Source: a virus
Virus record (IMG/VR): IMGVR_UViG_3300032087_002049
Span: 1-42,167 of that record
Length of the DNA stretch: 42,167 nucleotides
Reading direction: 5' to 3' (one strand)
Both the position numbers and the translations under genes were made by a program. Below are positions 1,043 to 40,065 of this stretch, piece by piece. Each line of letters starts with the position of its first letter. Position 1 is the first letter of the stretch. The notes beneath the pieces were generated by a model. It made no database searches. It worked only from the letters and a program-made list of their open reading frames with translations, and was not told where the DNA came from.

Positions 1043-1702
1043 ATGGCCTTTGCTTTAAATCGTTATACTGGCGATAACAGTACCACTACATTCAGTGTAC
1101 CTTTTAGTTACCGATCAACTGATGATGTTGTCGTAAAGGTAGCTGGGGTTACACAAACAATTACAACTCATTACAGTTTTCCCACTTCTAATCAAATACA
1201 GTTTGTTACAGCTCCAGCTCAAGATGCAATAGTTGAGATAAGAAGAGCTACAAGTCAATCTACAAGACTCGTTGATTATGCTGCTGGTTCTGTCTTTAAG
1301 GAATCAGATTTAGACAACGATAGTATTCAGGCTTTTAATATGGCTCAAGAGTCTATTGATATTGCTAGTGATGCTTTAACGAAAGACAGCACTGATCAAT
1401 ATGATGCTACAAGTAGAAGAATCAAAAATGTTACTGATCCAACAGCAGCTCAAGATGCAGCTACTAAAAGTTATGTGGACTCTAATGGAGCTACTGTAAC
1501 AGTAGGAACAGTAACGACAAACACTCTGAGTGCTGGTAGTAGTGCTACAGTTGCTATTACAAACTCAGGAACGACTCAAGCTGCTACTTTAAATTTCACA
1601 CTTGGCATTCCAGTTGGTAACACTGGTGCACAAGGAAGTGCAGGTGTCGATGGTGAAACTTCACTTGCTGATGCTACAGCATTGGCTATTGCTTTAGGTT
1701 AA
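1043..1702 (+). CDS. T7-type tail fibre N-terminal protein, cassette A
   Basis: 219 residues. The N-terminal ~130 residues match the T7 gp17 attachment domain: FALNRYTGDNSTTTFSVPFSY, a predicted beta region, EIRRATSQSTRLVDY, then an Ala/Asp-rich helix. TKSYVD follows, and the last ~60 residues hold a short collagen-like stretch (GIPVGNTGAQGSAGVDG) ending in ALAIALG. The family attaches the fibre to the tail tube. The protein is far shorter than T7 gp17 (553 residues), so the distal fibre must come from the next genes. A good ribosome site (AAGG) precedes the start. The ending ALAIALG is shared with the cassette E fibre protein at 34724-35557. Confidence 0.88.
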   Translation: MAFALNRYTGDNSTTTFSVPFSYRSTDDVVVKVAGVTQTITTHYSFPTSNQIQFVTAPAQDAIVEIRRATSQSTRLVDYAAGSVFKESDLDNDSIQAFNMAQESIDIASDALTKDSTDQYDATSRRIKNVTDPTAAQDAATKSYVDSNGATVTVGTVTTNTLSAGSSATVAITNSGTTQAATLNFTLGIPVGNTGAQGSAGVDGETSLADATALAIALG

Positions 1703-1712
1703 AGGAGAAAAC

Positions 1713-2057
1713 ATGGCAAACACATTTAAAATAAAAACTAAAGCTGCTGTATCGAACAGCTCTTTAGACACAGTTTACACTGTACCCAGTGCAACTACTA
1801 CGATTGTTTTAGGGATGTCTTTATGTAACATCACGAGTAATGCAATCACAGCAGATGTGCAACTGGTTTCAGATACATCTGATACAGAAACAAATGCTAA
1901 TATCTTTTTGTTAAAATCAGTAAACATACCAGCAAATACAACATTAGAAGTCTTTGGTGGTCAAAAGTTAGTATTACAAACAACCGATGTGGTTAAAGCT
2001 CAAGCATCAGCAGGATCTGCTTTAGACATGTCAGTATCAATCATGGAGCAAACATAG
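1713..2057 (+). CDS. Small tail-fibre cassette protein, copy A
   Basis: 114 residues beginning MANTFKIKTKAAVSNSSLDT, with a strong AAAGGAG ribosome site. It is close in sequence and identical in length to the protein at 35571-35915, which occupies the same slot of the second fibre cassette. The pattern is beta-rich with many Thr, Val and Asn and no Cys pairs or membrane segment, as expected of a small beta-sandwich virion protein. A role as a fibre connector or base protein is inferred from its fixed place between the T7-type fibre N-terminus and the receptor-binding protein. Confidence 0.75.
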   Translation: MANTFKIKTKAAVSNSSLDTVYTVPSATTTIVLGMSLCNITSNAITADVQLVSDTSDTETNANIFLLKSVNIPANTTLEVFGGQKLVLQTTDVVKAQASAGSALDMSVSIMEQT

Positions 2058-2058
2058 A

Positions 2059-2886
2059 ATGCCTTATCTAGGTACAGTGCCTACAACAACATTTCAGACA
2101 CTAGCTAAACAAGATTTTACTACAAGTGCCACTACAAGTTATACACTATCTCAGAGTGTTAGTTCAGCTAACGACATAGCTTTATTTATTAACAATGTAA
2201 GACAAGAACCAACTTATGCTTATAGTGCATCTGGCACTGCATTGACTCTTACAGCCGCAACTACAAGTTCAGATGATATGTACTGTGTATATTTAGGTAA
2301 AGCAGTAGGTACAGTAAATCCTGCTAGTGGTAGTGTAGGATTAGGAGAGTTATCAGCTACAGGAACAAAAGATGCTACAACATTTTTACGAGGTGATAAT
2401 ACTTTTGCAACTCCAAGTGGTGGTGCATATGAAACAGCATTGTTACATGTTGTAAATCAGCAAGCTACAAATACAAATGGAGGTGGAACTACTGCTAGTT
2501 CATTTGTAAAAATACCTTTTAATACAGTAAAAACAAATGAGATAACAGGTGCATCATTATCTAGTAGTCAAATAACTTTACCAAGTGGTACATATTATTT
2601 ATCTGCACAAACACCTTTATATAGAACTAATGAATTTAAAATGATTTTAAGAAATACCACAGATAGCACTTATGATTTATTTGGTAATGGTGGAACTGCA
2701 AATCAAACTTATGCTGTTAATACTTTTGCTAGTATTGATGGTCGTTTTACTATCTCAGCACAAAAGGTATTTGAGATTCAAATGTGGACACAAAGGACTC
2801 AAACTAATGGATTTGGATATGGTGTAGGAATAACAGATGGTCAAGCAACAATATTTGCTTCGGCTAAAATATGGAAGGTAGCATAA
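2059..2886 (+). CDS. Distal tail-fibre / receptor-binding protein, copy A
   Basis: 275 residues. Residues 1 to ~130 (MPYLGTVPTTTFQTLAKQDF..., FINNVRQEP, SATGTKDATTFLRGDNTFATPSGGAYETALLHV) are almost the same as in the protein at 35915-36736, and the DNA is also very similar there. The last ~145 residues form a variable adhesin-like domain with conserved landmarks: NEITGASLSSSQITLPSGTY, GRFTISAQKVFEI and IWKVA. This is the layout of a receptor-binding protein with constant base and variable tip. The stop overlaps the next ATG (TAATG). Confidence 0.8.
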   Translation: MPYLGTVPTTTFQTLAKQDFTTSATTSYTLSQSVSSANDIALFINNVRQEPTYAYSASGTALTLTAATTSSDDMYCVYLGKAVGTVNPASGSVGLGELSATGTKDATTFLRGDNTFATPSGGAYETALLHVVNQQATNTNGGGTTASSFVKIPFNTVKTNEITGASLSSSQITLPSGTYYLSAQTPLYRTNEFKMILRNTTDSTYDLFGNGGTANQTYAVNTFASIDGRFTISAQKVFEIQMWTQRTQTNGFGYGVGITDGQATIFASAKIWKVA

Positions 2887-3401
2887 TGCCATTAAGTAAA
2901 ATATTATCAGATTCGTTAGCAAGTGGTGTAGGACAAGGAGCTTATGAAACAGCTTTGCTTCATGTAAGAGATGAAAAGGCAACTAATACTCATGCAGGAG
3001 CATCATCAGCAGGAACAACACATACAAGAGATTTAAATACTGTTGTAACAAATGAGATTAGTGGAGCAAGTCTAAGTTCTAACCAAATTACGTTACCTAG
3101 TGGTACTTACTATTTAGAAGCAAGAGTACCATCATCTTTGTCTGGATATATACAACCTTATCTTTACAATACAAGCGACAGCTCATTTACTTTAATTGGT
3201 AATACAGGATATGCTCATCCTAATTTAAGTATGGTTAATCAATTAATTGATATAAGAGGTAGATTTACTATATCAGCACAAAAAGTTTTTGAAATTAGAC
3301 ATTATGCTTCACACACAAAAGGTACATATGGTCTTGGGTCTGGAGCAAACAATAGTCAAATAAATGTATTTACAGATGTACAGATATGGAAAACAGCATG
3401 A
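2886..3401 (+). CDS. Stand-alone receptor-binding tip domain
   Basis: 171 residues with start at the ATG overlapping the previous stop. It has a very short N-terminus (MPLSKILSDSLASGVGQG) fused directly to the same variable tip domain as the upstream gene: AYETALLHV, NEISGASLSSNQITLPSGTYYL, GRFTISAQKVFEI and ending IWKTA. The constant base domain is missing. It may be an extra fibre subunit, a tip swapped in by recombination, or a reserve of tip variation. It is translationally coupled to both neighbours (TAATG before, ATGA after). Confidence 0.75.
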   Translation: MPLSKILSDSLASGVGQGAYETALLHVRDEKATNTHAGASSAGTTHTRDLNTVVTNEISGASLSSNQITLPSGTYYLEARVPSSLSGYIQPYLYNTSDSSFTLIGNTGYAHPNLSMVNQLIDIRGRFTISAQKVFEIRHYASHTKGTYGLGSGANNSQINVFTDVQIWKTA

Positions 3402-3979
3402 CAAATCTTATTGAAAATCATATTGGTGTTTTTGATGATATTATTCCTGAACAAGATTGTAAGGAAGCTATGAGTTTTTTAGATAACAAAATATCTTTAG
3501 ATCAAACATATACAAGACTTATGGCAGAAGGTGTAAGTGAGAATATAAAAAAAGACACATCTTATTTTCTTGAGCAAACAACAGTTGAAGAATGGGAAGA
3601 ACCCTTAAAAAAAATATTTAATGGTGTAGGTATAGCATGGAATTCCTATAAAAGTATTACAGGTATTGCTGATTATTATAAAGAAGCACAATTTAGTTTT
3701 GAAACAACAAAGTTACAAAAAACAAAACCAACTGAGGGATATCATGTATGGCATATAGAACATGATGAGAAAAGATTTAAAAGAATATTATTTTTTATAA
3801 CTTACTTAAATGATGATTTTGAAGCAGGAGAAACAGAATTTTTAAATATGCAAAAAAGAGTAAAACCAAAACAAGGTAGAGTTCTTATTGCACCTGCACA
3901 TTTTCCTTATGTTCATAGAGGTAATCCTCCTATTAATGGAACTAAGTATGTGCATACAGGATGGGTTTATGTTAACTAA
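3398..3979 (+). CDS. 2OG-Fe(II) oxygenase, prolyl-4-hydroxylase-like
   Basis: 193 residues counting from the ATG that overlaps the previous stop (ATGA). Key features lie in the C-terminal half: a YHVWHIE metal-binding motif (His and Glu at ~119 and 121), a core strand RILFFITYLNDDFEAGETEF, the distal His in YVHRG (~173), and a basic residue (Lys ~183, KYVHTGW) where the family binds 2-oxoglutarate. These enzymes use Fe(II), oxygen and 2-oxoglutarate to hydroxylate Pro, other side chains or bases. Its place among fibre genes, one of which has a collagen-like stretch, suggests a virion or cell-surface substrate. That is inference. Confidence 0.85.
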   Translation: MTNLIENHIGVFDDIIPEQDCKEAMSFLDNKISLDQTYTRLMAEGVSENIKKDTSYFLEQTTVEEWEEPLKKIFNGVGIAWNSYKSITGIADYYKEAQFSFETTKLQKTKPTEGYHVWHIEHDEKRFKRILFFITYLNDDFEAGETEFLNMQKRVKPKQGRVLIAPAHFPYVHRGNPPINGTKYVHTGWVYVN

Positions 3980-3997
3980 AAAAGAAAGGAGAGTAAC

Positions 3998-4288
3998 ATG
4001 GCTTGGGTAAAAATAGTTGATAACGTAGTTACACAGAAACAACCTTACCAAGAAGATGGGTTTGAAGAAGTATCTGATAATGTAGTATGTGGTCAAATAA
4101 AACAAAGTGATGGTTCTTTTGCCAATCCAACTCCACCAGAGTTGACATATGCAGAGAAGCGAGAGCAAGAATATCCATCTATTCCAGATCAGTTAGATAT
4201 GCAGTATCACGATACTGTTAATACTACAACTACTTGGAAAGATGCGATCAAAGCTATTAAAGATAAATATCCAAAGGATGGTGAGTAG
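3998..4288 (+). CDS. Tail-fibre-associated small protein
   Basis: 96 residues with a strong GGAGAG ribosome site. The C-terminal part has the pattern EKREQEYPSIPDQLDMQYHD...WKDAIKAIKDKYP, which also occurs in the 102-residue protein at 37297-37605 (EYPSIGDQLDALYHA). This motif is common in small proteins encoded beside tail-fibre genes of many phages, where assembly or chaperone roles are proposed. The N-terminal half (MAWVKIVDNVV...) differs from the second copy. Function is inferred from context. Confidence 0.65.
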   Translation: MAWVKIVDNVVTQKQPYQEDGFEEVSDNVVCGQIKQSDGSFANPTPPELTYAEKREQEYPSIPDQLDMQYHDTVNTTTTWKDAIKAIKDKYPKDGE

Positions 4289-5316
4289 TGCCTTATATTG
4301 GTCAACAACCAGAGATTGGAGCATACAAAAAGCTAGATTCTATTACAGCAGTTAATGGTCAAGCAACTTATACTCTACAGTATAACTCTGCTAACTATAG
4401 TCCTGCTAGTGCAAATCATCTCATAGTAAGTCTAAATGGTGTTATCCAAGCACCTCAAGATTCATTTACAGTATCTGGTAGTACCCTTACCTTTGCATCT
4501 AATCTAGCTACAGGCGATTCAATAGATTTTATTTTAGTTTTAGGCGATGTTTTAAATGTAGGTACACCTAGCGATAATACTGTTACGAATGACAAGTTAG
4601 CTACTGCACCGACTATTATATCAAAAGGAGCAGGATCAAATTCAGGAGCAATAAAATTAAATTGCGAACAAAATTCACATGGTGTTACTATTAAAGGACC
4701 ACCTCATAGTGCGGCACAAAGCTATACATTAACCTTACCAAGCACAGCACCAAGTGCAGACAAAGCATTAATTACAGATGGTAGTGGTAATCTATCTTTT
4801 GGTAGTGCAGGAGGTTTAACATTACTAAACAAAACAACTTTATCATCAGGAGATACTTCAGCTACTTTACAAGGTTTAATGACAGGATATGATTCATATT
4901 TAGTAATTTATAAACTTCAAAGGGCAGCAAATTTAATTGTAAGACTTACATTTATGAGTGGTGCAACTGAACTTACATCAGGATATCATTCTCAAGGACA
5001 TTATTCTAATGGCACATCTTCTGCAGGTATAGGTGATGACTCGCAAAGTTTTATTAATTTAACATCAACTTGGAGTGGCAATCAAAGTGCTACAGCAACT
5101 CCAGTAAATGGGTTCTTTTATGTTATTGATCCTAGCGATTCAAATGATTACACATATATTACAGGTCAAAATACATTTTGGTCAACAAGTTCAAATTTAA
5201 TTATTAATGCAATTAGTGGATCATCAACTACAACACAATCACAAGATGGTTTAAAATTTGGAGTAAGTACATCAAATTATGCTAATGGATTTATTAAATT
5301 ATATGGGATAAGCTAA
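4288..5316 (+). CDS. Tail-fibre / receptor-binding protein
   Basis: 342 residues starting at GTG, which overlaps the preceding TAG stop. Residues 1-100 (MPYIGQQPEIGAYKKLDSI...LQYNSANYSP...LIVSLNGVIQAPQDSF...FILVLG) form a typical fibre base domain in marine podo- and myoviruses. SAAQSYTLTLPSTAPSADKA follows (a common fibre segment), then a ~170-residue beta-rich C-terminal domain with no close copy in the window. It is probably a second receptor-binding specificity in cassette A. No counterpart is present in cassette E. Confidence 0.75.
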   Translation: MPYIGQQPEIGAYKKLDSITAVNGQATYTLQYNSANYSPASANHLIVSLNGVIQAPQDSFTVSGSTLTFASNLATGDSIDFILVLGDVLNVGTPSDNTVTNDKLATAPTIISKGAGSNSGAIKLNCEQNSHGVTIKGPPHSAAQSYTLTLPSTAPSADKALITDGSGNLSFGSAGGLTLLNKTTLSSGDTSATLQGLMTGYDSYLVIYKLQRAANLIVRLTFMSGATELTSGYHSQGHYSNGTSSAGIGDDSQSFINLTSTWSGNQSATATPVNGFFYVIDPSDSNDYTYITGQNTFWSTSSNLIINAISGSSTTTQSQDGLKFGVSTSNYANGFIKLYGIS

Positions 5317-5624
5317 TGACAACTTTATATAAAATAGTAAATGGGGAACGATATAAATTAACTACAGAAGAAATAGCTGAAGTAGAAGCTAAAAATGTAG
5401 AGTGGAACAATGGAGCTAAAAATAGAGCAATGGTTAGTCTTAGAAATAAAAGAAATGATTTGTTAAAAGAAACAGATTTTTATGCTTTATCTGATGTAAC
5501 TATGAGTACAGAAATGACAACTTATAGACAAGCACTAAGAGATTTACCAAGCACTATATCCGATGATGATACAGCAGAAGATGTAGATAATGTAACATTT
5601 CCAACAAAACCGAGTGGAGGATAG
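5316..5624 (+). CDS. Tail-fibre assembly-type protein (Phage_tail_APC-like)
   Basis: 102 residues. The central segment LRNKRNDLLKETDFYALSDVTMSTEMTTYRQALRDLP matches the hallmark of the phage tail assembly chaperone-like family (RN.LL..TD...L......YRQALRDLP). The C-terminus is acidic then Pro-rich. Its start overlaps the stop of the fibre gene by one base. Proteins of this family are usually encoded directly after the fibre whose folding or assembly they assist, and the position agrees. Confidence 0.75.
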   Translation: MTTLYKIVNGERYKLTTEEIAEVEAKNVEWNNGAKNRAMVSLRNKRNDLLKETDFYALSDVTMSTEMTTYRQALRDLPSTISDDDTAEDVDNVTFPTKPSGG

Positions 5625-6230
5625 ATGGCTATTATAAGAGCAAACAATAATACACTTAGTTCAGTTACTGCATTACCTAGTGCAATAAGTACAGGAAGTA
5701 ATATAATAGAAACTATACAATCACCTTGTGATGGTCGTTCAGTAACAGTTCCTAGTGGTACATACACTATGCCTAATGTTACAGCAGTTCAGAATTTAAC
5801 TACCTCTTATGCTGATGTAACAGGTTCATCTTTTGCTTATACTCCACCAAGTGATGCGACAAGAGTTTTATATGGTTTAAGTTTATATTTTGCTAGATCA
5901 GATGATTACCCTTTGGCACACTTTAAATTTTTTGTAGACTCTGATGAAGCTGAAAAAGTTAGAAGAAATATTTATGGTAATCAATTAAGGCATTATGTAG
6001 AGTTTAATTATATAATAGAAATTGGTGGTACTGCTGATACAACTTTACCAAGAGTTGCTTCTTGGACTTCTAATAAAACAATGAAAATTCAGGCAAGAGA
6101 ATATAGTGGTACTTATGAGGCTTCATTACATGCTTTGGTTGAATGGGATGGAACAAGTGCATCTGGAAGTGGAGCAGGAAAAGTTTATGTACCTCCATTT
6201 TTAACAATCATGGCTCTGAAAGATTCGTAA
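5625..6230 (+). CDS. Variable fibre-cassette protein, copy A
   Basis: 201 residues. The first ~18 residues (MAIIRANNNTLSSVTALP) are nearly the same as in the protein at 36737-37297, and then the sequences diverge completely. The rest is beta-rich (SYADVTGSSFAYTPPSDATRVLYGLSLYF, LVEWDG), as in virion tip or carbohydrate-binding domains. A conserved N-terminal anchor with an exchangeable body points to a host-range module. The start follows the preceding stop with no gap. Confidence 0.65.
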   Translation: MAIIRANNNTLSSVTALPSAISTGSNIIETIQSPCDGRSVTVPSGTYTMPNVTAVQNLTTSYADVTGSSFAYTPPSDATRVLYGLSLYFARSDDYPLAHFKFFVDSDEAEKVRRNIYGNQLRHYVEFNYIIEIGGTADTTLPRVASWTSNKTMKIQAREYSGTYEASLHALVEWDGTSASGSGAGKVYVPPFLTIMALKDS

Positions 6231-6349
6231 TGCAGTTAACTAAAAACATAATAAGGTTCGGAAATTTTTTGATAAAAATACCAAAGGCTATGAAAGGTGT
6301 TTGGGATAAATCTGAAAACAGATGGGGTTACAAAAAAAATGACAGATAA
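6230..6349 (+). CDS. 39-residue basic protein, copy A
   Basis: Starts at the ATG overlapping the previous stop and reads MQLTKNIIRFGNFLIKIPKA, ending WGYKKNDR. A 39-residue homologue with the same flanks lies at 37605-37724. Both overlap the start of the following XhlA-like gene (ATGACAGATAA). Conservation at protein level despite third-base changes between copies supports a real gene. It has an amphipathic N-terminal half and no known domain. Function is unknown; lysis or fibre accessory by position. Confidence 0.65.
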   Translation: MQLTKNIIRFGNFLIKIPKAMKGVWDKSENRWGYKKNDR

Positions 6350-6536
6350 GAATCTTCAAGATGTAGCATCAGAGATGGAAGCTCACGAAAGGGAATGTTC
6401 AGTATACAGACAAATGACTACACAAAGATTAGACTCTGTTGACTCTCGAATAAAAAAGCTAGAGGTATTGCTATGGTCATCAAGTGGGTCTATTATTGCC
6501 CTGTTGATAACTATAATACTTAATTTATTAAAATGA
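6339..6536 (+). CDS. XhlA-like coiled-coil membrane protein, copy A
   Basis: 65 residues from ATG 6339; an upstream in-frame ATG at 6297 lies inside the previous gene and is not conserved. Residues 5-40 form a charged coiled coil (MEAHERECSVYRQ...SRIKKLEVLL), followed by one C-terminal membrane segment (SGSIIALLITIILNLL). This is the layout of hemolysin XhlA and related holin-associated proteins. The copy at 37714-37908 has the same layout. It overlaps both neighbours and opens the lysis block. Confidence 0.7.
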   Translation: MTDKNLQDVASEMEAHERECSVYRQMTTQRLDSVDSRIKKLEVLLWSSSGSIIALLITIILNLLK

Positions 6537-6991
6537 TTGATCCAATTTCTGCATTTGCCGCTGTAAAATCTGCACACTCGGTAATAATGCAAGGCATAAA
6601 AATAGGTAAAGACCTAAGTTCTATGTCAGGATATATATCTAAGTGGGCTGTAGGTGAAGCAAACCTTGATGTCAAAGCAGAAAAGAAAGGCAGAAGTTTA
6701 CTTGGGCGTTTTAGTTCAGTAGAAGCACAAGCAATACAAGCTCATCTTCGTAAAGAAGAACTACGCAACATGAGAAATGAACTGCGTGAAATATTTGCAC
6801 TATATGGATCTCCGGGACAATGGGAAAGATTGCAGGCAGAGATTGCATCTGTAAGAGCAGAGAAGAAAAAACAACTAAAGGAAGCAGAAAGACTTGCAGA
6901 AAGAAGAAAGACCATTCTTATTTCTGTAGGTGCAGTAATTGGGGTATTGCTTTTTATTTATTATGAGTTAAAGTTATTAGAGATAATATGA
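6533..6991 (+). CDS. Coiled-coil protein with C-terminal membrane anchor, copy A
   Basis: 152 residues. It starts MIDPISAFAAVKSA and has a long charged helix (residues ~70-130, ELREIFALYGSPGQWERLQAEI...KKKQLKEAERLAERRK). It ends in a hydrophobic segment (TILISVGAVIGVLLFIYYELKLL). A homologue sits at 37913-38362 in the second lysis cassette (DPIS...AFAAIKSG; LRELFMWYGAPNAWDEF). It overlaps the endolysin gene by 4 bases. Context suggests a lysis role such as spanin or holin partner, but no lipobox is seen and the family is not recognised. Confidence 0.65.
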   Translation: MIDPISAFAAVKSAHSVIMQGIKIGKDLSSMSGYISKWAVGEANLDVKAEKKGRSLLGRFSSVEAQAIQAHLRKEELRNMRNELREIFALYGSPGQWERLQAEIASVRAEKKKQLKEAERLAERRKTILISVGAVIGVLLFIYYELKLLEII

Positions 6992-7389
6992 CAAATGAAG
7001 ATTTAGACATAATGGCTAAAACAATGTGGGGTGAATCTCGCAATCAAGATACTAGTGGGCAAATAGCTGTAGCTAGTGTAATAAAGAATAGAGCAGAGGC
7101 TCGAAGGTGGTATGGAAATACACCAAAAGAAGTATGTTTAAAAGAGTGGCAGTTTAGTTGTTGGAATGAAGGAGATCCAAATAAAGAGAAAATGGAAAAC
7201 TTGCCTAAAGTTGATGACGACTATTTAAAGTTATTGGGTGTAGCATATCTTGTAATGACGGGACAGTTAAAAGATAATACAGAGGGATCTACACATTATC
7301 ATACGACTAATATTATGCCTAAGTGGGCACAAGATCAAAAACCTGTGGTTGTTATTGGCGATCATAAATTTTATAATAATATAATCTAA
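6988..7389 (+). CDS. SleB/CwlJ-type cell-wall hydrolase (endolysin)
   Basis: 133 residues covering just the hydrolase domain. It opens LDIMAKTMWGESRNQDTSGQIAVASVIKNRAE, where the Glu of WGES (residue 16) is the conserved catalytic acid of the SleB/CwlJ family. It continues with the typical CLKEWQFSCWN and THYHTTNIMPKWA blocks. The enzyme cuts peptidoglycan to release progeny. There is no signal peptide, so export would depend on the neighbouring holin. It overlaps the genes on both sides. No equivalent is found in the second lysis cassette. Confidence 0.88.
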   Translation: MTNEDLDIMAKTMWGESRNQDTSGQIAVASVIKNRAEARRWYGNTPKEVCLKEWQFSCWNEGDPNKEKMENLPKVDDDYLKLLGVAYLVMTGQLKDNTEGSTHYHTTNIMPKWAQDQKPVVVIGDHKFYNNII

Positions 7390-7775
7390 TGTTACCCTTA
7401 CTTGCACCTATAGCTAAATCAATATTTTCTACTGTAGATAAAGTAATTACATCTAAAGCAGAAAAAGAAAAGATTAAAGCTGAACTACAACATAAGATTA
7501 TTACAGGTGATCTTAAAGAAATAGAAGCGGCCGCTACCGTAATACAATTAGAAGCACAGGGTACTTGGTTGCAAAGAAGTTGGCGTCCTATAATGATGTT
7601 ATTGTTTGCAGGATTAATGGTTGCTCATTGGTTTGGGTTTACTGCGCCAAATATTCCTGAGTCTGTACAAAACTCATTGCTCGATATAATAATGATTGGT
7701 GTTGGTGGATACACTGTCGGGCGTAGTGCAGAGAAAATTGGACAACAATGGCAAAACAAAAACAAAAAACCATAA
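7389..7775 (+). CDS. Holin of the GTA 3-TM type
   Basis: 128 residues. It has an N-terminal amphipathic helix (LLAPIAKSIFSTVDKVI), a charged helix with EKEKIKAELQHKI and IEAAATVIQLEAQGTWLQRSWRPIMM, then two hydrophobic segments (MLLFAGLMVAHWFGF and LLDIIMIGVGGYTVGRS). This order and the WRP motif match the holin family first described for gene transfer agents. The start overlaps the endolysin stop by one base. It should form the membrane lesion that lets the SleB endolysin out. Confidence 0.82.
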   Translation: MLPLLAPIAKSIFSTVDKVITSKAEKEKIKAELQHKIITGDLKEIEAAATVIQLEAQGTWLQRSWRPIMMLLFAGLMVAHWFGFTAPNIPESVQNSLLDIIMIGVGGYTVGRSAEKIGQQWQNKNKKP

Positions 7776-14289: not shown

Positions 14290-14781
14290 TTATATATTAA
14301 AATTAATGAATTTTTTATATTCTTTTTCAAGTTCTTTTTCTTCGGCTACAACTTGCTCGGCTGTTTTATCCTTAGAAACAGAACTTTTTTGAATATGTAG
14401 ATTTTCAACGCAAGATTCTACTGCGTGTGTCATCAACTGGTCGATTAAACTCAAATCAATAGAGTTTTTACAATTCCAATTATAATTTTTACACGCAACT
14501 AAATATTCATTTTCGCCTTTCTCATCTTTCGAGAATGACGGGTCCTCTTGCGATTTTACTTTTTCCCAATATTCTATTTTTTTATTGGAATTTCTTAGTG
14601 CACCAAGAACAAGATTGCCCAAACCTGCACAAGCACTGTGCGAGGATGACCAATTTTTATTTTTGGTTGATGGCGTAAGTTTAAATAGTAAGTCAACTAA
14701 TGGTCTCACAACCTTTACGGCTTCTTCAAACTGTTCTGGTGTGTAAACGATTTTATTATATTTATATAGTTGTTTTGTCAT
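14290..14781 (-). CDS. 163-residue hypothetical protein, first gene off the early promoter
   Basis: Starts MTKQLYKYNKIVYTPEQFEE. A moderate AAGGA site lies ~10 bases before the ATG. The protein is soluble and helical, with several Cys (SSHSACAGLG, LVACKNYNWNCKNS, ESCVENLH) and a very charged C-terminus (VVAEEKELEKEYKKFI). It lies alone between a strong divergent promoter-like site plus structured leader DNA and an intrinsic terminator, so it is probably the first and most strongly made early protein. No family is recognised. A host-takeover or control role is inference from its place only. Confidence 0.6.
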   Translation of the reverse strand: MTKQLYKYNKIVYTPEQFEEAVKVVRPLVDLLFKLTPSTKNKNWSSSHSACAGLGNLVLGALRNSNKKIEYWEKVKSQEDPSFSKDEKGENEYLVACKNYNWNCKNSIDLSLIDQLMTHAVESCVENLHIQKSSVSKDKTAEQVVAEEKELEKEYKKFINFNI

Positions 14782-14815: not shown

Positions 14816-14852
14816 CTCACTCTCTCAGTGAAATTTCCCTGAGGGGAGTGAG
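14816..14852 (-). promoter_or_regulatory. Local hairpin competing with the ncRNA closing helix
   Basis: CTCACTC (14816-14822) pairs with GAGTGAG (14846-14852), and CTCAG (14824-14828) with CTGAG (14839-14843). This 12-bp hairpin uses bases that otherwise close the large RNA fold at 14843-14850/15046-15053. In minus-strand mRNA it ends ~20 bases before the ribosome site of the 14781 gene. Two exclusive folds are typical of RNA switches, but none is proven here. Confidence 0.45.
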
Positions 14853-15072
14853 CGATAGTTGGCTATTTTGTTTTCTAAATCTGTTCAACAACAATCGGGA
14901 GTTTCGCGAATGAATGACTTCCCCACCTACTTGGGGGGAAGGCAGAAGGACTATTGTTGTTGAGGGCTGTCTGCCCTTGAAAGACAAATGTGCGAAGCAC
15001 CGAGATACAACTACAGATTTGGAAAATAAAATAGCTTACGATAGCCACTCCCCTTAGAGAAATTTCTTTTTT
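14830..15072 (+). ncRNA. Candidate structured non-coding RNA (~240 nt)
   Basis: No coding frame fits, but base pairing is dense. Closing helix 14830-14850 with 15046-15066: 20 of 21 positions pair, one G-U. Second helix 14862-14884 with 15013-15035: 23 consecutive pairs, two of them G-U. Third helix TCAACAACAAT 14885-14895 with 14953-14963: 11 pairs. Hairpins: CTTCCCC 14918/GGGGAAG 14935; GGGC 14964/GCCC 14973; GTGC-GAA-GCAC 14990-15000. The GGGC loop TGTCT (14968-14972) can pair with AGACA (14982-14986), a pseudoknot. Six T follow at 15067-15072. Three wobble pairs on the plus strand would be A-C mismatches on the minus strand, against one the other way, which favours plus. It does not resemble tmRNA, RNase P, 6S or a group I intron to my eye. 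Large phage RNA classes such as GOLLD or marine IMES RNAs cannot be excluded. Confidence 0.65.
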
Positions 15073-15109
15073 ATAATCCCTTTTATCCGATATAGCCGTT
15101 TATGGGAGT

Positions 15110-15150
15110 AAGAGGGGTTTTGTCGGCAGACTAAAAACAAAACCCCTCTT
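15110..15150. promoter_or_regulatory. 13-bp perfect hairpin with a loop complementary to the ncRNA
   Basis: AAGAGGGGTTTTG (15110-15122) pairs perfectly with CAAAACCCCTCTT (15138-15150). The 15-base loop contains GGCAGAC (15125-15131), complementary to GTCTGCC (14969-14975) in a hairpin of the neighbouring RNA candidate, so a loop contact is possible. There is no U-run on either strand. It overlaps the expected start of transcription of the minus-strand promoter. Confidence 0.5.
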
Positions 15151-15178
15151 AAATAAAGTGGGGGGTAAGGGGTGTCAA
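15150..15178 (-). promoter_or_regulatory. Early promoter, minus strand
   Basis: Sigma-70-like: -35 TTGACA (perfect, 15178-15173), 17-base spacer, -10 TATTTA (15155-15150). Predicted start is near 15143. It would transcribe leftward through the structured region into the 14781 gene. It is back to back with a plus-strand promoter 25 bases away. Confidence 0.6.
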
Positions 15179-15203: not shown

Positions 15204-15232
15204 TTGACTTTTTTGATAGCTACTGATATATG
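15204..15232 (+). promoter_or_regulatory. Promoter of the small terminase / late block
   Basis: -35 TTGACT (15204-15209), 17-base spacer, -10 TATATG (15227-15232). The -10 overlaps the first ATG of the small terminase frame. The expected start near 15239 coincides with the second in-frame ATG (MSVAIKE), which would give a leaderless mRNA. No ribosome site lies before either ATG. Confidence 0.45.
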
Positions 15233-15619
15233 AAGAGTATGTCCGTTGCAATCAAAGAAAGCAATAAGATTACACCAAGAGCAAAGAAACTTGTGGATAC
15301 ACTCGTATCAACGGGATGCACAATCACCGAAGCCTCCAAAGTAGCAGGATACAAAGGAAATTCATCCAGAGTAAGTGCAAGCCGTATGCTACGTAATCCA
15401 GAAGTACAGAAGTATATGTTTGAACAAATCACCCACAACTTAGGAATGAGTGCTGTCAAGGCTCAATCAAGGTTGCTTGATCTATGTACATCAGCTAAGA
15501 GTGAGTATGTACAACTAGAAGCTAGTAAGGATATACTTGACAGAGCAGGATTTAAAGCACCAGACAAACATCAGCATTTGGTCAAGGGTGATTTCAGTAT
15601 TAATATAGACTTGAAGTGA
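15230..15619 (+). CDS. terS: Terminase small subunit
   Basis: 129 residues (126 from the second ATG at 15239, which may be the true start). The N-terminal half has the terminase small subunit pattern: KKLVDTLVSTGCTITEASKVAGYKGNSSRVSASRMLRNPEVQKYMFEQI. That is an HTH (GCTITEASKVAGYKGN) followed by the RMLRNPEVQKYM signature. Next come LDLCTSAKSEYVQLEASKDILDRAGFKAPDKH and a C-terminal SINIDLK. It recognises the packaging site and hands DNA to the large subunit at 18277. It is separated from that gene by a run of basic small proteins and lies directly downstream of the ncRNA candidate. Confidence 0.8.
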   Translation: MKSMSVAIKESNKITPRAKKLVDTLVSTGCTITEASKVAGYKGNSSRVSASRMLRNPEVQKYMFEQITHNLGMSAVKAQSRLLDLCTSAKSEYVQLEASKDILDRAGFKAPDKHQHLVKGDFSINIDLK

Positions 15620-18105: not shown

Positions 18106-18296
18106 CAATATTTACCAAATATAGTATTAGAGAAATAGACACACTACGAACTGTAGTTAAATCACAACATATGAAACATTATCCAAAAGAGATGGTAACT
18201 AACTATGAAGCTGATAGAATAATAGAATCTCTATCAGAACAAGCTAGAGAAAAATTATATGAACTAGCAGTTAATTATGGCATCACTAAATTATAA
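18102..18296 (+). CDS. 64-residue hypothetical protein
   Basis: Starts MTIFTKYSIREIDTLRTVVK, helical. It overlaps the preceding gene by 4 bases and the large terminase start by 20. Its C-terminal SEQAREKLYELAVNYGITKL is amphipathic. Its tight place before the large terminase suggests a packaging accessory role; no family recognised. Confidence 0.55.
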   Translation: MTIFTKYSIREIDTLRTVVKSQHMKHYPKEMVTNYEADRIIESLSEQAREKLYELAVNYGITKL

Positions 18297-19782
18297 ACCT
18301 GATGGACAGGTATTAAAAAATTTTTTAAAAGATGATACTTTTTTTAGAGGAGTACGAGGACCAGTAGGTTCTGGTAAATCAGTAGCGTGTTGTATTGAAA
18401 TAATAAAACGAGCTATATCTCAAAAACCAAATGACGAGGGCATACGAAAAACACGTTGGGCAGTTATTCGTAATACTAATCCACAGCTTAAAACAACAAC
18501 AATTAAGACGTGGTTGGATTGGTTTCCAGAGGAAGATTGGGGAAACTTTACGTGGAGTGTTCCTTACACACATAAATTAAAAAAAGGAGATATAGATTGT
18601 GAGGTAATCTTTTTGGCTCTTGATAGACCAGAAGATGTAAAAAAATTGCTATCTCTTGAATTGACGGGAGTGTGGATTAATGAGGCACGAGAAATTCCTA
18701 AAAGTATTGTTGATGCTTGTTCTATGCGTGTGGGTCGTTTTCCTTCTATGCGTGATGGTGGTCCGACATGGTATGGTGTTGTTTGCGATACCAACCCACC
18801 AGATACAGATCATTGGTGGGCAATTATGGCAGGTGAAACTGTTATACCTGATTACATAAGTAAACAAGAAGCAAAGATGCTTATCAAACCAGATAATTGG
18901 AAATTTTTTAATCAACCACCTGCTATGGAAGAAATTAAAGACAAGAACAATCAGGTGGTTGAATATAAAAAGTATAATCTATCTGAGAATAAAAACAATC
19001 TTACGGAAAACTATTATAGTAATATTATAAGAGGTAAAACTAAATCGTGGATAGATGTATATGTTTTAAACAAACTAGGACAGGTAGAGGATGGTAAGCC
19101 TGTATATGAAGCATTTAGACAGGATGTACACGTTGCAAAAGGTGAATTAGCAATAGCAGAAACATTACCAATCTATATGGGCATTGATTTTGGTTTAACA
19201 CCTGCTTGTGTATTTGCACAAAAAATAAGAACAAGATGGATAATATTAGAAGAACTAGTTGCAGAAGATATGGGTATTGTAAAATTTTCTGATCTTATGA
19301 AACAATCTATGGCAAAATATTTACCAAGACCATTTCATATATTTGGAGATCCTGCAGGCGATCATAGAGTGCAAACAGATGAGAATACACCATTTCAAAT
19401 ACTTAGAGGCAAAGGTATAACTGCACGCCCTGCTCCAAGTAATGATGTGCTTATACGATTAGAAAGTGTAAATGCTACATTGACACGAATGGTAGATGGA
19501 GAATCAGGCATTTTAATAGATAAGAGTTGTATTAATTTAATACGAGGTTTTGCAGGTGGTTATCATTACAGAAGACTCCAAGTATCAGGGGAACGCTATG
19601 ATGAGCGTCCAAATAAGAATAGATTTTCACATATACATGATGCACTTCAATATTTATTATTAGGTGCAGGAGAAGGCAGATCGTTGACGATTGGAGGAAA
19701 ATATAGTAAACCTATAATAGCTAAACGTAATTTTGATGTTTTTAATGTTAAACCTAAAAACATCTATGAAAGAAGGAGGTAA
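18277..19782 (+). CDS. terL: Terminase large subunit (non-T7 type)
   Basis: 501 residues. Walker A GPVGSGKS at residues 28-35; Walker B-like GVWINE ending in Glu 136; a coupling segment VVCDTNPP (~169-175). The C-terminal RNase H-like nuclease has Asp 304 (MGIDFGLTP), Asp 358 (FGDPAGD) and Asp 455 (HIHDALQY). All catalytic positions look intact. It pumps DNA into the procapsid and cuts concatemers with the small subunit at 15230. It is unrelated in detail to the second large terminase at 40053-41708. The portal follows after one small gene. Confidence 0.92.
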   Translation: MASLNYKPDGQVLKNFLKDDTFFRGVRGPVGSGKSVACCIEIIKRAISQKPNDEGIRKTRWAVIRNTNPQLKTTTIKTWLDWFPEEDWGNFTWSVPYTHKLKKGDIDCEVIFLALDRPEDVKKLLSLELTGVWINEAREIPKSIVDACSMRVGRFPSMRDGGPTWYGVVCDTNPPDTDHWWAIMAGETVIPDYISKQEAKMLIKPDNWKFFNQPPAMEEIKDKNNQVVEYKKYNLSENKNNLTENYYSNIIRGKTKSWIDVYVLNKLGQVEDGKPVYEAFRQDVHVAKGELAIAETLPIYMGIDFGLTPACVFAQKIRTRWIILEELVAEDMGIVKFSDLMKQSMAKYLPRPFHIFGDPAGDHRVQTDENTPFQILRGKGITARPAPSNDVLIRLESVNATLTRMVDGESGILIDKSCINLIRGFAGGYHYRRLQVSGERYDERPNKNRFSHIHDALQYLLLGAGEGRSLTIGGKYSKPIIAKRNFDVFNVKPKNIYERRR

Positions 19783-33500: not shown

Positions 33501-34724
33501 AATAACTTATTTGACGCACAAAATGGATTTGCCAAGTCTAATTTAAAAGACATAAGATATTTTGCTCCATTTCAAGAATTAGCTGTAGCTATGACTAATA
33601 GATATGTTTATGAAGGTGGCATTACTCTTGATGCTACAAGGTCTGGTAGAATTTTTGATAAATATTTTGGACAATATGCAGAGAGAGCACAGGAGTATTT
33701 CTTTACATTTAATGGTTTGCAACCTATGACATATTACTACAAAACATTTAATAGTATGATTTCTATACATAGATTTTTAGAAGATAGTATAAAATGGAGT
33801 AAAGGTAAATTATCTAAAGCAGAACAAGATCGTCTTTTGTCATATGGTATAAATAAAGATATGGCTAAAGTAATTGCTCGTATGCCTATAGAAAAAATAA
33901 AAACTGATGACCCTAACTTACCCGGGTTGCTTGCAAATATGACAGAGTGGCATAAATATGATGGTGGTATTGTAGCAAGAGATGTATTATCTAAAGCCAT
34001 AAAAACAGATGTAGATAGAGCGATAGTAACACCTACTGCAGGTGATGCTCCAAATATGATGAGTGGTGTTATTAGAATAAATGATGAAGGTATTACACAA
34101 TTATTTGAAAATAAATTGTTTAGAAAATTTATAGAAATAATTTCTGTAGGTAAAGTAGATCGAACAGAGTTTGGAGTAAAAATAAATTCTGCACCATTAC
34201 AGTTATTAACACAATTTTATTCTTGGGCGTTTGGTGCAAATGGTAAAGTTTTAATATCTGCAACACAAGGTAGAGAGGCAGGAGCAAATATGTGGGCAGG
34301 AATGAGTACAATGATTGGTTTAGGTATGTTTGCAGATTGGGCAAAAAATCCACAATATTGGGAAAACAAAGAAACAACTGAAAAAATTATTAGAGGTGTA
34401 GAACTGTCAGGTACTATGGCATTACTTGGTGATCTTAATTTTACAATGGAAACAATGAGTGGTGGTATTACAGGACAATCTGTAGGACTAAGACCTATGT
34501 TAGGGGTAGAGCCACGATTTGGTGATGCTGACGAACACGACGCTTTTACAAGTATTATAGGAGCAGGTCCTGCCGCAATTTATGAGTTATCAAGAGCATT
34601 AGGTGGTAGTGATTTTACTAATGAAGAAAAACACGACACAATAAAAAGACTACTACCATTGTCAAATACTTACATTATAGGTAATATGATTGAAAACATA
34701 TATGATGGAATAAGAGGTATATAA
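30567..34724 (+). CDS. Large internal virion / ejection protein, T7 gp16-like by position
   Basis: 1385 residues, the longest gene in the window (T7 gp16: 1318). A Gly/Ala-rich hydrophobic zone near residues 130-215 (HLGAGIIDPVVLIPIFGVKGVGLV, SMLFGGALGSAVGAL) could insert in membranes during ejection. The C-terminal ~250 residues (PLQLLTQFYSWAFGANGKVLISATQGREAGANMWAGMSTMIGLGMFADWAKNP) have further such segments. I do not see a lytic transglycosylase Glu-Ser motif at the N-terminus as in T7 gp16, so the wall-cutting step may be done otherwise. It abuts the second fibre cassette by a one-base overlap. Confidence 0.72.
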   Translation: MSKDVYESAEQLPNPEQKSYLGSQTAESIILDDVAQPKTLIHRPQDDQSFRGDFVDLFMLNTVGQLVDKYKFGRETGDFDPNYEPMMDIEGYEPNYKQFIESKNSIHTQIIKDQIDRNTARRERTADAGFFTHLGAGIIDPVVLIPIFGVKGVGLVKNFMRTAGQIGAAEVPNQYLRYNLDPTMTKSEGVATVGYSMLFGGALGSAVGALKKTMPEDAYAKSFNGKSLTEHLEKYNEKYNQATVKFNVGETTFDLDPTNAVSGIVFKKMEGKKGFNNPGKNLTKKGKRRAKINVRSNLDLDSNNTIYTKEQIKGLLNQTDDLVKYEKDIATFSKVADYDVKANILNFDERVAKGQWINKLYLDQFRKLKVKLPEGMLKTEEDWFHFNAVRAIGEKVYRPKTKQFKSDIAYQKALTEWTIDYVQKPVNANYKTDVGVLLGTLEKASPLRRGLENIYNNKKINDDDKSYYARKLYEITGNHGTILEANRLGVHSPSSIAMDLSVKHFARYLQHIAKIEDEFHRLYGFDESMSNMQRRGKGFVIATKNTVKKVGNFFARNKTATPRNLSKVEFFELVGEARLDKSILTRLTGEEKKAVVNSLKEVDQFFKFYNKEASRLGMFATQGAQTQLLRKFEFARSEIDKDLGQTLKKEIDDFLAEKRQEYFTAGVRSDPMAFMTEKSEIINSLSATQKAQVKKKLELERDINFAQRDIPNLPNKESTIEDYMPLVFNHEKVKKNETALKDMLQRNVEEMIEQAPFPGSKYITTRARLREEGYPDKGFNISKFEGDDVPANERQEIIRAEVERRHTYILETQSKFQDIEGINNIDRTYTGAGKIGSKNLLARETDIPPSEFAPFVETDINFVMRSYSQRMGGAIEFTRKYGDTHMKDFLNHLEIKMLRAGMDKTEINKVMNSFQDEKDKLLGTFYSADPTALTARGVVALRNMISLAYMGKVALSALPEAGRPVMVNGFQKTFRMGLNNLFDAQNGFAKSNLKDIRYFAPFQELAVAMTNRYVYEGGITLDATRSGRIFDKYFGQYAERAQEYFFTFNGLQPMTYYYKTFNSMISIHRFLEDSIKWSKGKLSKAEQDRLLSYGINKDMAKVIARMPIEKIKTDDPNLPGLLANMTEWHKYDGGIVARDVLSKAIKTDVDRAIVTPTAGDAPNMMSGVIRINDEGITQLFENKLFRKFIEIISVGKVDRTEFGVKINSAPLQLLTQFYSWAFGANGKVLISATQGREAGANMWAGMSTMIGLGMFADWAKNPQYWENKETTEKIIRGVELSGTMALLGDLNFTMETMSGGITGQSVGLRPMLGVEPRFGDADEHDAFTSIIGAGPAAIYELSRALGGSDFTNEEKHDTIKRLLPLSNTYIIGNMIENIYDGIRGI

Positions 34725-35557
34725 TGACATTAGTGTCAGCACAAAATACACCTAGACATAGTTTTACTGCAACAGCAAGTCAAACAACATATACTATTAC
34801 GTTTGAATTTTTTGCTATTGCTGATTTAAAAGTATATGTAGATGGTTCTTTAGCTACATACAATGCTAATCCTACTACTACAACAACATATAAAGTAACA
34901 GCAACTAATTCGTCTAGCGATAGTGCGTATGAGTTTGGTACGGGTGCAACTATTACATTTGGTAGTGGTCATACTGCAGGACAAAAAATTGTTATTATAC
35001 GAAAAATAGATATAGAAAGAACAACTGATTTTCCTGTAAACGGAGCATTTGATGTTACTGCATTAAATACAGAATTAGATAAAAATATAGCAATATTTGC
35101 CGAGCACAATGATAAATTAGATAGAACAATTAGACTAGATGATCATAGTGCTAGTGGTACATTAACAATACCAACAACAAGAGCAGATAAAATATTATCT
35201 TTTGATAGTTCAGGTAATGTTTCTGTAAGTTCACAACCTATTTCAGGTGGTGTAACAGTAAGCACATTATCAGCCGGAGCATCAGCTACAGGTTCTTATA
35301 ATTCTACAACAGGCGTGTTATCACTTGGAATACCACAAGGTGCAACAGGTGCAACAGGTGCGGCAGGAGCAGATGGAACAGGTAATTTTAACAGTTTTAC
35401 AATCACAGATGGCTCCACATCACAAACAATAGAAGATGGAAATACACTTACACTAACAGCAGGTACTAATATGCAAGTATCAGTAAGTGCAACAGATACA
35501 GTAACAATAACTAACACAGCACCTGACCCTGTTGCATTAGCTATAGCTTTAGGTTAA
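34724..35557 (+). CDS. T7-type tail fibre N-terminal protein, cassette E
   Basis: 277 residues. Opening PRHSFTATASQTTYTITFEFFAIADLKVYVDGSLATY and KIVIIRKIDIERTTDFPVNGAFDVTALNTELDKNIAIFAEHNDKLDRTIRL match the gp17 attachment domain. It continues with SGTLTIPTTRADKILSFDSSGNVSV, a collagen-like stretch (GIPQGATGATGAAGADG) and a final ALAIALG. It is the counterpart of 1043-1702 but differs over most of its length. Only the collagen-like segment and the ending are close. Confidence 0.87.
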   Translation: MTLVSAQNTPRHSFTATASQTTYTITFEFFAIADLKVYVDGSLATYNANPTTTTTYKVTATNSSSDSAYEFGTGATITFGSGHTAGQKIVIIRKIDIERTTDFPVNGAFDVTALNTELDKNIAIFAEHNDKLDRTIRLDDHSASGTLTIPTTRADKILSFDSSGNVSVSSQPISGGVTVSTLSAGASATGSYNSTTGVLSLGIPQGATGATGAAGADGTGNFNSFTITDGSTSQTIEDGNTLTLTAGTNMQVSVSATDTVTITNTAPDPVALAIALG

Positions 35558-35570
35558 TATAGGAAACAAT

Positions 35571-35915
35571 ATGGCAAATACATTTAAAGTAAAAACAAAA
35601 GCAAGTGTAAGCAATAGTTCTTTAGATACAATATATACTGTGCCTTCGAGCACAAGTACAGTTGTATTAGGTATGGCATTAAGCAATAAAACAACTAATG
35701 CAATAACTGCAGATGTACAATTAGTAAGTAATACTTCTGATACAGAAACAAATGCAGATGTCTTTTTGCTAAAAGGAGTAGATATACCTGCTAATACTAC
35801 ACTTGAGGTGTTTGGAGGACAAAAAGTTGTCGTGCAAACAACTGATGTTATTAAAGCACAAGCAAGTGCCGCAACGGCATTAGATGTTGCATTGTCAATT
35901 ATGGAGATAACCTAA
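35571..35915 (+). CDS. Small tail-fibre cassette protein, copy E
   Basis: 114 residues, beginning MANTFKVKTKASVSNSSLDT. Collinear with 1713-2057 over the full length and clearly homologous (VLGMALSNKTTNAITADVQLVS, LEVFGGQKVVVQTTDV). The ribosome site AGGAAAC is weaker than in copy A. The stop overlaps the next ATG. Same inferred role as a fibre connector. Confidence 0.75.
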   Translation: MANTFKVKTKASVSNSSLDTIYTVPSSTSTVVLGMALSNKTTNAITADVQLVSNTSDTETNADVFLLKGVDIPANTTLEVFGGQKVVVQTTDVIKAQASAATALDVALSIMEIT

Positions 35916-36736
35916 TGCCTTATCTCGGATCTTCACCTACTACATCATCAGTAGCACTTGCAAAACAAGATTTTACAACAAGTGCAACAACTTCTTATAC
36001 TCTAGCTAATTCAGTAACAAGTGCAAATGATATAGCTTTATTTATTAACAATGTAAGACAAGAGCCAACGTATGCATATAGTGCATCTGGTACTGCATTA
36101 ACACTTACAGCCGCAACTACAAGCTCAGATGATATGTACTGTGTATATTTAGGTAGAGCAGTAGGTACAATAAATCCTGCTAGTGGTAGTGTAGGTGTAG
36201 GGGAATTATCAGCCACAGGTACAAAAAACAGTACAACATTTTTACGAGGTGATAATACTTTTGCAACTCCAAGTGGTGGTGCATATGAAACAGCATTGTT
36301 ACATGTAAGGCAAGAAGAAAGCAGTGGTGGTGGAAGTGGTAGTATGTCTACAAGTGCTTGGAATACAAGAACTCTTAATACAGTAATGACAAATGAAATA
36401 ACAAGTGCATCTTTAAGCTCAAATCAAATAACTTTGCCAAGTGGTACTTATTATATTTATGCCTATGGATTAGGTTATGCTTGTACTAAACATCAAACAA
36501 AATTATATAACACTACAGATGCTTCCGATGTATTACTAGGTAATAGTAGTATGGCTCATGCAACTTATGGTCAAAATACACATAGTATTGTAAGTGGTCG
36601 TTTTACTATATCAGCTCAAAAAGTTTTTGAACTACAATCAAAATCATCATCTGCCAGAGCAACTAATGGAATGGGTGTTCATGCAGGATTAGGTACAGAA
36701 GTTTACACAGATGCAAATATATGGAAGGTGGGATAG
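35915..36736 (+). CDS. Distal tail-fibre / receptor-binding protein, copy E
   Basis: 273 residues. The first ~130 residues are nearly identical to those of 2059-2886, with long runs of identical DNA (for example around 36036-36306 against 2178-2453). The tip domain (ARQ-type insertion after YETALLHV, then NEITSASLSSNQITLPSGTYY, GRFTISAQKVFEL, IWKVG) is the same fold with changed surface residues. It is a strong case of conserved base and diverging tip. Confidence 0.8.
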   Translation: MPYLGSSPTTSSVALAKQDFTTSATTSYTLANSVTSANDIALFINNVRQEPTYAYSASGTALTLTAATTSSDDMYCVYLGRAVGTINPASGSVGVGELSATGTKNSTTFLRGDNTFATPSGGAYETALLHVRQEESSGGGSGSMSTSAWNTRTLNTVMTNEITSASLSSNQITLPSGTYYIYAYGLGYACTKHQTKLYNTTDASDVLLGNSSMAHATYGQNTHSIVSGRFTISAQKVFELQSKSSSARATNGMGVHAGLGTEVYTDANIWKVG

Positions 36737-37297
36737 ATGGCTATTATAAAAGCAAACAATAATACACTTAGTTTAGTAACTGCATTACCTAGTGGTTTAG
36801 GTGGTAAAGTATTGCAAATAGTACAAAATTGGGATGACCAATATGCAACATATACAAATACAAGTGTAGATGCACAAGCTACAGTATTAAGTCAAGCAAT
36901 TACACCAAGTGCAACAACAAGTAAAATATTAATACAAGTAAATTTATGTGTAAGTGTAACAAGTAGTGGTAATAAACATTATGGATTAGTAATGTATAGA
37001 GGTTCAACTGAGATAGGAAGTGGTGATAATACAAGTTGGAACACAGGAGTTGGAGAAACACATAGTGCTGTATATATGGGTCAGTACACACAACCAGATA
37101 GAATACTTACAGGAGTATATTTAGATTCTCCTAATACTACATCATCAATTACTTATAATATGAAAAGTTTTATTCACGATTTTGGAACATCAATTACAGC
37201 AAAAACTTTAGTCGTTAATGGTGGTGGATATAATTATAACAATAAAGAAACATCTATTACATCATCAAGTATAACTTTAACAGAAATAGGTGCATAA
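36737..37297 (+). CDS. Variable fibre-cassette protein, copy E
   Basis: 186 residues. The first ~18 residues (MAIIKANNNTLSLVTALP) match 5625-6230, and the body is unrelated to that copy. It has a beta-rich body with SQAITPSATTSKILIQVNLCVSVTS...HYGLVMYRGSTEIG...TTSSITYNMKSF, a pattern common in phage tail-tip proteins annotated as structural. The exchangeable body suggests host-range function. Confidence 0.68.
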   Translation: MAIIKANNNTLSLVTALPSGLGGKVLQIVQNWDDQYATYTNTSVDAQATVLSQAITPSATTSKILIQVNLCVSVTSSGNKHYGLVMYRGSTEIGSGDNTSWNTGVGETHSAVYMGQYTQPDRILTGVYLDSPNTTSSITYNMKSFIHDFGTSITAKTLVVNGGGYNYNNKETSITSSSITLTEIGA

Positions 37298-37605
37298 TGG
37301 TAAATATAGTAGATGCAATATTATCCTTAGATCCAAATGCAAGGGTAAAAGTAATAGGTGAAGATTACAATCAAATAACTTGGTATGACAATAATCCAAA
37401 TAATATTACTGTAACACAAATTAAAACTAAAAAAGCAGAATTAGATGCAGTAGATGTAGCTAATGAATATAAAATGCAAAGAGAAAAAGAATACCCAAGT
37501 ATAGGAGATCAACTTGATGCTTTATATCATGCTAATGTTTTCCCTAGCGATATGGCTTCTAAAATACAAGCAGTTAAAAACAAATATCCAAAGCCGAGTG
37601 AATAA
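37297..37605 (+). CDS. Tail-fibre-associated small protein, copy E
   Basis: 102 residues. The C-terminal motif KMQREKEYPSIGDQLDALYHA...KIQAVKNKYPKPSE is shared with 3998-4288. The N-terminal half (MVNIVDAILSLDPNARVKVIGEDYNQITWYDNNP) is different and resembles small proteins encoded after fibre genes in many marine phages. Likely an assembly factor or fibre-cassette component. Confidence 0.65.
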   Translation: MVNIVDAILSLDPNARVKVIGEDYNQITWYDNNPNNITVTQIKTKKAELDAVDVANEYKMQREKEYPSIGDQLDALYHANVFPSDMASKIQAVKNKYPKPSE

Positions 37606-37724
37606 TGCAGTTAACTAAAAACATAATACGATTTAGTAATTTTTTAATTAAAATACCAAAAGCTATGAAGGGTTTATGGGATAAGTCTGAAAATCGTTGG
37701 GGTTATAAAAAGAATGACAGATAA
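37605..37724 (+). CDS. 39-residue basic protein, copy E
   Basis: Starts at the ATG overlapping the previous stop and reads MQLTKNIIRFSNFLIKIPKA, ending WGYKKNDR. It is the homologue of 6230-6349 with nearly the same protein and several silent base changes, which argues for selection on the protein. It overlaps the next gene by 11 bases. Function unknown. Confidence 0.65.
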   Translation: MQLTKNIIRFSNFLIKIPKAMKGLWDKSENRWGYKKNDR

Positions 37725-37908
37725 GAATATTCAAGATGTAGCAGCAGAGATGAAAGCTCATGAAAGAGAATGCCAGGTATACAGAGAGACTACACAAAGA
37801 AGTTTAGATAATTTAGAAAGTCGTATTAAGAGATTGGAGTTGTTAATCATGGCATCAACAATGACAATCTTAGGTTCAGTATTCTTATTGTTATCCAAAG
37901 GGTTATGA
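37714..37908 (+). CDS. XhlA-like coiled-coil membrane protein, copy E
   Basis: 64 residues. Coiled coil (MKAHERECQVYRETTQRSLDNLESRIKRLELLI) followed by one membrane segment (MASTMTILGSVFLLLSKGL). It shares MTDKN-QDVA-EM-AHEREC with 6339-6536. Probably a holin-associated lysis protein. It is followed after 4 bases by a GTG-started gene. Confidence 0.68.
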   Translation: MTDKNIQDVAAEMKAHERECQVYRETTQRSLDNLESRIKRLELLIMASTMTILGSVFLLLSKGL

Positions 37909-37912
37909 CCCA

Positions 37913-38362: not shown

Positions 38363-38371
38363 GAGAACTAT

Positions 38372-39842: not shown

Positions 39843-40065
39843 AGGAGAAAAACTCTCTACAAAGAAAGGTGCAGGGTTAACAGCTAAAGGAAGAGCTAAA
39901 TATAACCGAGCAACTGGTAGCAATTTAAAAGCACCAGCACCTAATCCTAAGACTAAAAAAGATAAAGCCAGAAAGAAAAGTTTTTGTGCTCGTATGAGAG
40001 GTATAGTTAAAAGATCTAAAAACTCAGAAAGAGCTAGAGCTTCACTAAGACGATGGAAGTGTTAG
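39802..40065 (+). CDS. Lysine-rich small protein beside the terminase (second copy)
   Basis: 87 residues. The core TKKGAGLTAKGRAKYNRATGSNLKAPAP...KKDKARKKSFCARMRGIVKRSKNSERARASLRRW is homologous to the 15881-16195 protein (LNAKGRASYKAQTGGTLKAPV...ARM...). Both lie upstream of a large terminase gene although the terminases are unrelated, which points to a shared packaging- or head-linked job. It overlaps the terminase start by 13 bases. Confidence 0.65.
   Translation: MPRKKKSVKLSVGRGEKLSTKKGAGLTAKGRAKYNRATGSNLKAPAPNPKTKKDKARKKSFCARMRGIVKRSKNSERARASLRRWKC

Follow-up and report, generated by a model that had tools for sequence, protein, structure and literature searches.

Pelagiphages rank with the most abundant viruses of the ocean. 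In the podovirus T7, the hairpin ends of concatemers provide an example of a DNA hairpin tied to packaging. Among RNAs, GOLLD and ROOL are large and structured, some of them are phage-associated, and their function is not known (PMC12286853). Palindromes in coding sequence are described for nematomorph mitochondria, where they are scattered and nearly all perfect and where conversion is discussed as their cause (PMC6649704). The window analysed here, a stretch of 42,167 nucleotides of viral DNA (IMG/VR record IMGVR_UViG_3300032087_002049), carries a very large hairpin that probably works as a folded RNA, of a class not described so far. Literature searches found the element described nowhere, the pelagiphage transcriptome paper that they returned treating other phage types, and a covarying hairpin at a fixed locus, reaching up to ~1.1 kb and entering neighbouring genes, is without counterpart in the literature searched.

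The hairpin sits in a divergent gap (Table 1) between leftward genes (14781-7992), among them those for SSB, a RecE-like exonuclease and a RusA-like resolvase, and the rightward operon of the terminase small subunit (terS), in which terS and terL come first and are followed by head and tail genes; among the scanned genes, neither a polymerase nor a primase was recognised. The more likely start of terS is at 15239, directly after the predicted -10 box, rather than at 15230. Among cultured phages, the closest relative found is Pelagibacter phage EXVC031P Hodr (host SAR11 HTCC1062), whose TerL is 84% identical and whose genome is recorded as circular. Two different large terminase genes occur in the window, at 40053-41708 and 18277-19782 (the second with a match to PHROG 38), and its tail-fibre genes form similar sets at 1043-7775 and 34724-38740; the record may be chimeric at the ends. 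The hairpin region itself is supported by independent contigs. Amplification chimeras can generate inverted repeats, and this, together with the possibly chimeric ends, is what an assembly or amplification artefact, or a chance fold, would have in its favour; imperfect arms, occurrence in many independent metagenomes and presence in the cultured isolate Hodr refute it in practice and leave it a negligible probability.

On the plus strand, positions 14820-15080 fold with a minimum free energy (MFE) of -116.5 kcal/mol (z -10.6), equalled by none of 200 shuffles, and the minus strand of the same region reaches -95 kcal/mol (z -7.0), which bears out the original prediction of a fold beyond chance. 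Palindromes were located by strand-neutral inverted-repeat alignment, in which scores of at least 40 are strong and the background lies at ~25-35; the hairpin scores 52 and the rest of the window at most 34. Global MFE over the entire upstream region, tried for the element boundaries, was too noisy, and palindrome alignment was used instead. A long closing duplex forms a rod; at its apex, a pseudoknotted hairpin joins an internal-loop module that is conserved. Of the predicted elements, the closing helix, the helix of 23 pairs, the pseudoknot between TGTCT and AGACA and the inner hairpins all lie where expected, and the predicted third helix is present and backed by covariation, at 14886-14895/14953-14962 instead of 14885-14895/14953-14963. 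In the pseudoknotted hairpin, the stem shows G-C to C-G changes among relatives, and loop and partner read TGTCT/AGACA in the window and TGTCC/GGACA in locus L246. The six-T run, likewise predicted, is present in the window, as it is in L246 and L091, and only part of the relatives have one (L084, L085 and L014 are without); a terminator scan did not pick it up. Further to the right, the inverted repeat that precedes the predicted terS promoter has counterparts in L084, L246 and L091. Separately, the right flank of L090, L279, L086, L087, L003 and L089 holds another small hairpin, placed between the main one and the predicted terS promoter, with compensatory variation among relatives (ATACCCTTGAAGCCTCAAGGGTAT, ATACTGCTGAAGCATCAGCAGTAT, ATAGCCTTGAAGCCTCAAGGCTAT).

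Table 1. Features of the hairpin locus in the window
Feature	Position	Strand	Basis or remark
First gene of leftward operon, 163 aa	14290..14781	-	no PHROG match
Complete hairpin element	14830..15066	+	MFE, top-scoring palindrome of the window, covariation
Closing helix	14830..14850 / 15046..15066	+	88.9% of cells paired; double changes in 5 pairs
Second helix, 23 pairs	14862..14884 / 15013..15035	+	double changes in 5 pairs
Apical module	14886..14962	+	covariation, covariance model R1
10-bp helix of apical module	14886-14895/14953-14962	+	covariation
Near-invariant internal loop of apical module (CGGGAGTTTCGCGAATGAAT / AGAAGGAC)		+	
Covarying stem of apical module	14916-14924/14935-14943	+	
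Hairpin AGGGC-TGTCT-GCCCT and partner AGACA (14982-14986)	14963..14986	+	possible H-type pseudoknot
T run 3' of stem	15067..15072	+	possible intrinsic terminator tail
Second inverted repeat AAGAGGGGTTTTGT...ACAAAACCCCTCTT	15107..15151	+	between hairpin and predicted terS promoter; read directly
Predicted terS promoter TTGACT-17-TATATG	15204..15232	+	kept in most window-type relatives
Terminase small subunit (terS)	15230..15619	+	PHROG 51/2538

As judged from the alignments, compensatory changes preserve the pairing while arms and stems turn over freely; the second-helix arms of the window, for instance, are replaced in other relatives. Counted as sequences and not as independent events, changes on both sides affect 19 of 72 pairs (43 cells) in the window's group, against 1-9 pairs and 2-12 cells in controls with slid partners, and double compensatory changes affect 63 of 160 pairs (123 cells) in Hodr's group, against 23-40 pairs and 35-63 cells in the slid controls, so that the covariation anticipated among relatives is found. 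The structures were taken from alignment members, which favours the percentages of paired cells; double changes tell more. In the third helix, 100% of cells are paired and 3 of 10 pairs carry double changes; the combination TCGG/CCGA and TTTCGC/GCGAAG, which competes with it in the energy model, is paired in 73.9% of cells, and on these alignments covariation supports the third helix as the better backed of the two. The 77-nt apical module has 95.3% of cells paired and double changes in 9 of 19 pairs (0 of 500 shuffles), and its internal loops are nearly constant in six of the eight sequences. Two types of outer arms that are unrelated to each other carry the module, the window type and the L090/L279 type. 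Below E 1e-7, the matches of its covariance model R1 all fall on hairpin apices that lie upstream of terS, in sequences that built the model or near copies of these, and at significant scores they are confined to the plus strand. Weaker plus-strand matches from outside the model (E 0.03 to 2.6) fall on the apices of L113, L102 and L108, which belong to Hodr's group, and hint at a shared core.

In arms delimited regardless of wobble pairs, and with repeated contexts removed, isolated mismatches are G-T in 71 cases and A-C in 22 (p 3e-7, a value that ignores shared ancestry), which points to the plus strand, in single-stranded form, as the one that matters; in Hodr's group alone the preference is weak (12:7). 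At four-fold sites, the rightward genes have a keto content of 0.454, and thus no plus-strand mutational skew towards G and T is visible. Of 53 hairpins, 44 have the lower energy on the plus strand, but so do 39 of 49 late-operon control stretches, and because the controls share this tendency the energy difference alone is no proof of polarity. Individual hairpins can show it strongly; in L056 it amounts to -612 for the plus strand vs -461 for the minus strand, with z -18.4 vs -13.6 for the inner 681 nt. Taken together, near-invariant loops, covarying stems, the pseudoknot and wobble polarity make a folded plus-strand RNA the best explanation, and covariation and wobble polarity likewise uphold the original prediction of a large structured RNA on this strand. 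We hold it to be an evenly balanced question whether the hairpin is such an RNA of an undescribed class. As expected of a functional structured RNA, compensatory changes exceed the controls and folding is polarised to one strand, the latter by the mismatch bias and weakly in Hodr's group taken alone; a promoter of its own did not emerge from a sigma-70 test of the left edge of the hairpins, where the mean score was 8.17 vs 8.11 in controls.

Viral contigs searched with TerL and TerS yielded ~150 loci, of which 81 distinct terS loci were analysed. A palindrome scoring at least 40 lies near terS in 53 of the 81, and 26 score at least 100. These palindromes occupy the same site, the divide between leftward genes and the rightward terS genes, and span ~140 to 1,180 nt, the largest extending into the flanking genes; relatives with a large palindrome have one that dominates the genome. 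In Hodr, it runs from -806 to +248 of terS, the latter limit lying near the end of the searched stretch, and 391 of its 448 pairs are Watson-Crick; the palindrome of L093 covers 1,140 nt and has 451 Watson-Crick pairs among 498. In such giant versions, the left arm lies inside the leftward gene, the one at the position of 14290..14781, and in Hodr's group the right arm passes through the predicted terS promoter (counterpart TTGACA-16/18-TATACT) into terS. By our own reading of the Hodr sequence, the facing coding stretches of the two arms are in different frames. The palindrome scan shows none comparable in HTVC019P and MEP301, and HTVC010P and BcepC6B have several moderate scores and no single dominating site. 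At the junction of record end and start in L283 (HTVC010P), a very AT-rich, palindrome-like stretch of ~1.2 kb (score 103) lies where two genes diverge ahead of terL, and its minus strand folds better. The contigs L082, L088, L095, L112, L018, L020 and L135 start within ~150 bp of the terS start, beside the hairpin, perhaps because assembly stops at it or because it marks variable or physical ends. BLASTN against phage records gave no useful matches, and a DNA-pattern scan for window-type arms returned mostly chance matches.

Since a dedicated upstream promoter was not found, a role as single-stranded DNA stays a serious rival: a plus strand exposed in the course of replication or end processing, or a cruciform, would fold near terS and act as an origin-like or a packaging/processing site, and fold-back synthesis at ends would regenerate the palindromes, explaining their length and turnover. 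Consistent with such a DNA element are the single dominant palindrome beside terS in relatives with large ones, arms that remain complementary across unrelated reading frames, the leftward genes for SSB, RecE-like exonuclease and RusA resolvase in a set of scanned genes with no identified polymerase or primase, and the precedent of the T7 concatemer hairpin ends. Near-invariant internal loops, a covarying stem and a G-T bias are, however, more typical of RNA, and arm conversion should give near-perfect arms without wobble bias; we judge the DNA element unlikely, if worth serious attention. Giant inverted duplications and high turnover could also mean that the palindromes are made and kept by mutation alone, through template switching and arm conversion, with little function, as has been discussed with regard to conversion for the coding palindromes of nematomorphs (PMC6649704). 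The nematomorph repeats are nearly all perfect (PMC6649704), unlike the phage arms, and the palindromes keep to the same locus despite large divergence and have conserved apical loops; because the arms are imperfect and wobble-biased, mutation alone is less likely, and we regard it as improbable.

To return to the folded plus-strand RNA, it would be transcribed rightwards and, in the window, would end at or near the T run, separate from the terS mRNA. There, the hairpin precedes the predicted terS promoter and is thus not expected to be a terS leader. This promoter puts the transcription start near the ATG at 15239 (15204-15241), and the terS mRNA may be leaderless by this sequence-based placement. 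Position at the junction favours an element between early and late transcription: the hairpin would most likely be a cis-acting junction element whose duplex rod insulates or processes RNA across the early/late divide, RNase III would be the obvious host enzyme for its processing, and the conserved apex would be a putative protein binding site. Taken on their own, these functional steps are doubtful. The early-late switch proposed in the original prediction fits the position at the divergent junction. Against the RNA reading, in addition to the left edge without sigma-70 enrichment, the plus strand of the giant versions runs antisense to the adjacent gene for hundreds of bases, something that a small RNA acting independently would not need. 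More broadly, and tentatively, on a reading that we consider less likely than not, up to ~1.1 kb of plus-strand self-complementarity may be selected, even through coding sequence, with a giant rod and its RNA apex governing the early/late or packaging transition at a single locus that is widespread in phages of SAR11 and related phages. The hairpins suggest that selection for base pairing extends into coding sequence, and a conserved, unannotated hairpin as large as this at the early/late junction of a cultured phage-host pair puts a new mechanism, by phage RNA or by DNA processing, directly within reach of testing.

The original prediction could not place the RNA in a known class, and this stands: the Rfam 15 covariance models gave no match at the gathering threshold in the window and five relatives, and the best sub-threshold matches of the window look like chance. 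No Rfam match was obtained to phi29 pRNA, GOLLD or ROOL, whose models we assume to be present in the library. A packaging RNA that works with the terminase in the manner of phi29 pRNA, as also proposed, has one point in its favour, its location, which in most relatives is immediately upstream of terS; with no Rfam family match, and with a genome that encodes a small terminase of known families, it is highly improbable.

By comparison with phi29 pRNA, the hairpin would likewise be a phage RNA near packaging genes, but the phage type differs, there is no Rfam match and its packaging role is hypothetical. Like GOLLD and ROOL, it would be a large, structured and phage-borne RNA; unlike them, it consists of a single long duplex rod topped by a small apex, and it matches no Rfam family. 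The T7 concatemer ends would be comparable, as a DNA hairpin tied to packaging in a podovirus, if a genome end lay at or near the palindrome. The coding palindromes of nematomorphs resemble it as long inverted repeats that overlap coding sequence; the phage hairpins differ from them in being imperfect, covarying and wobble-biased and in occupying one fixed locus.
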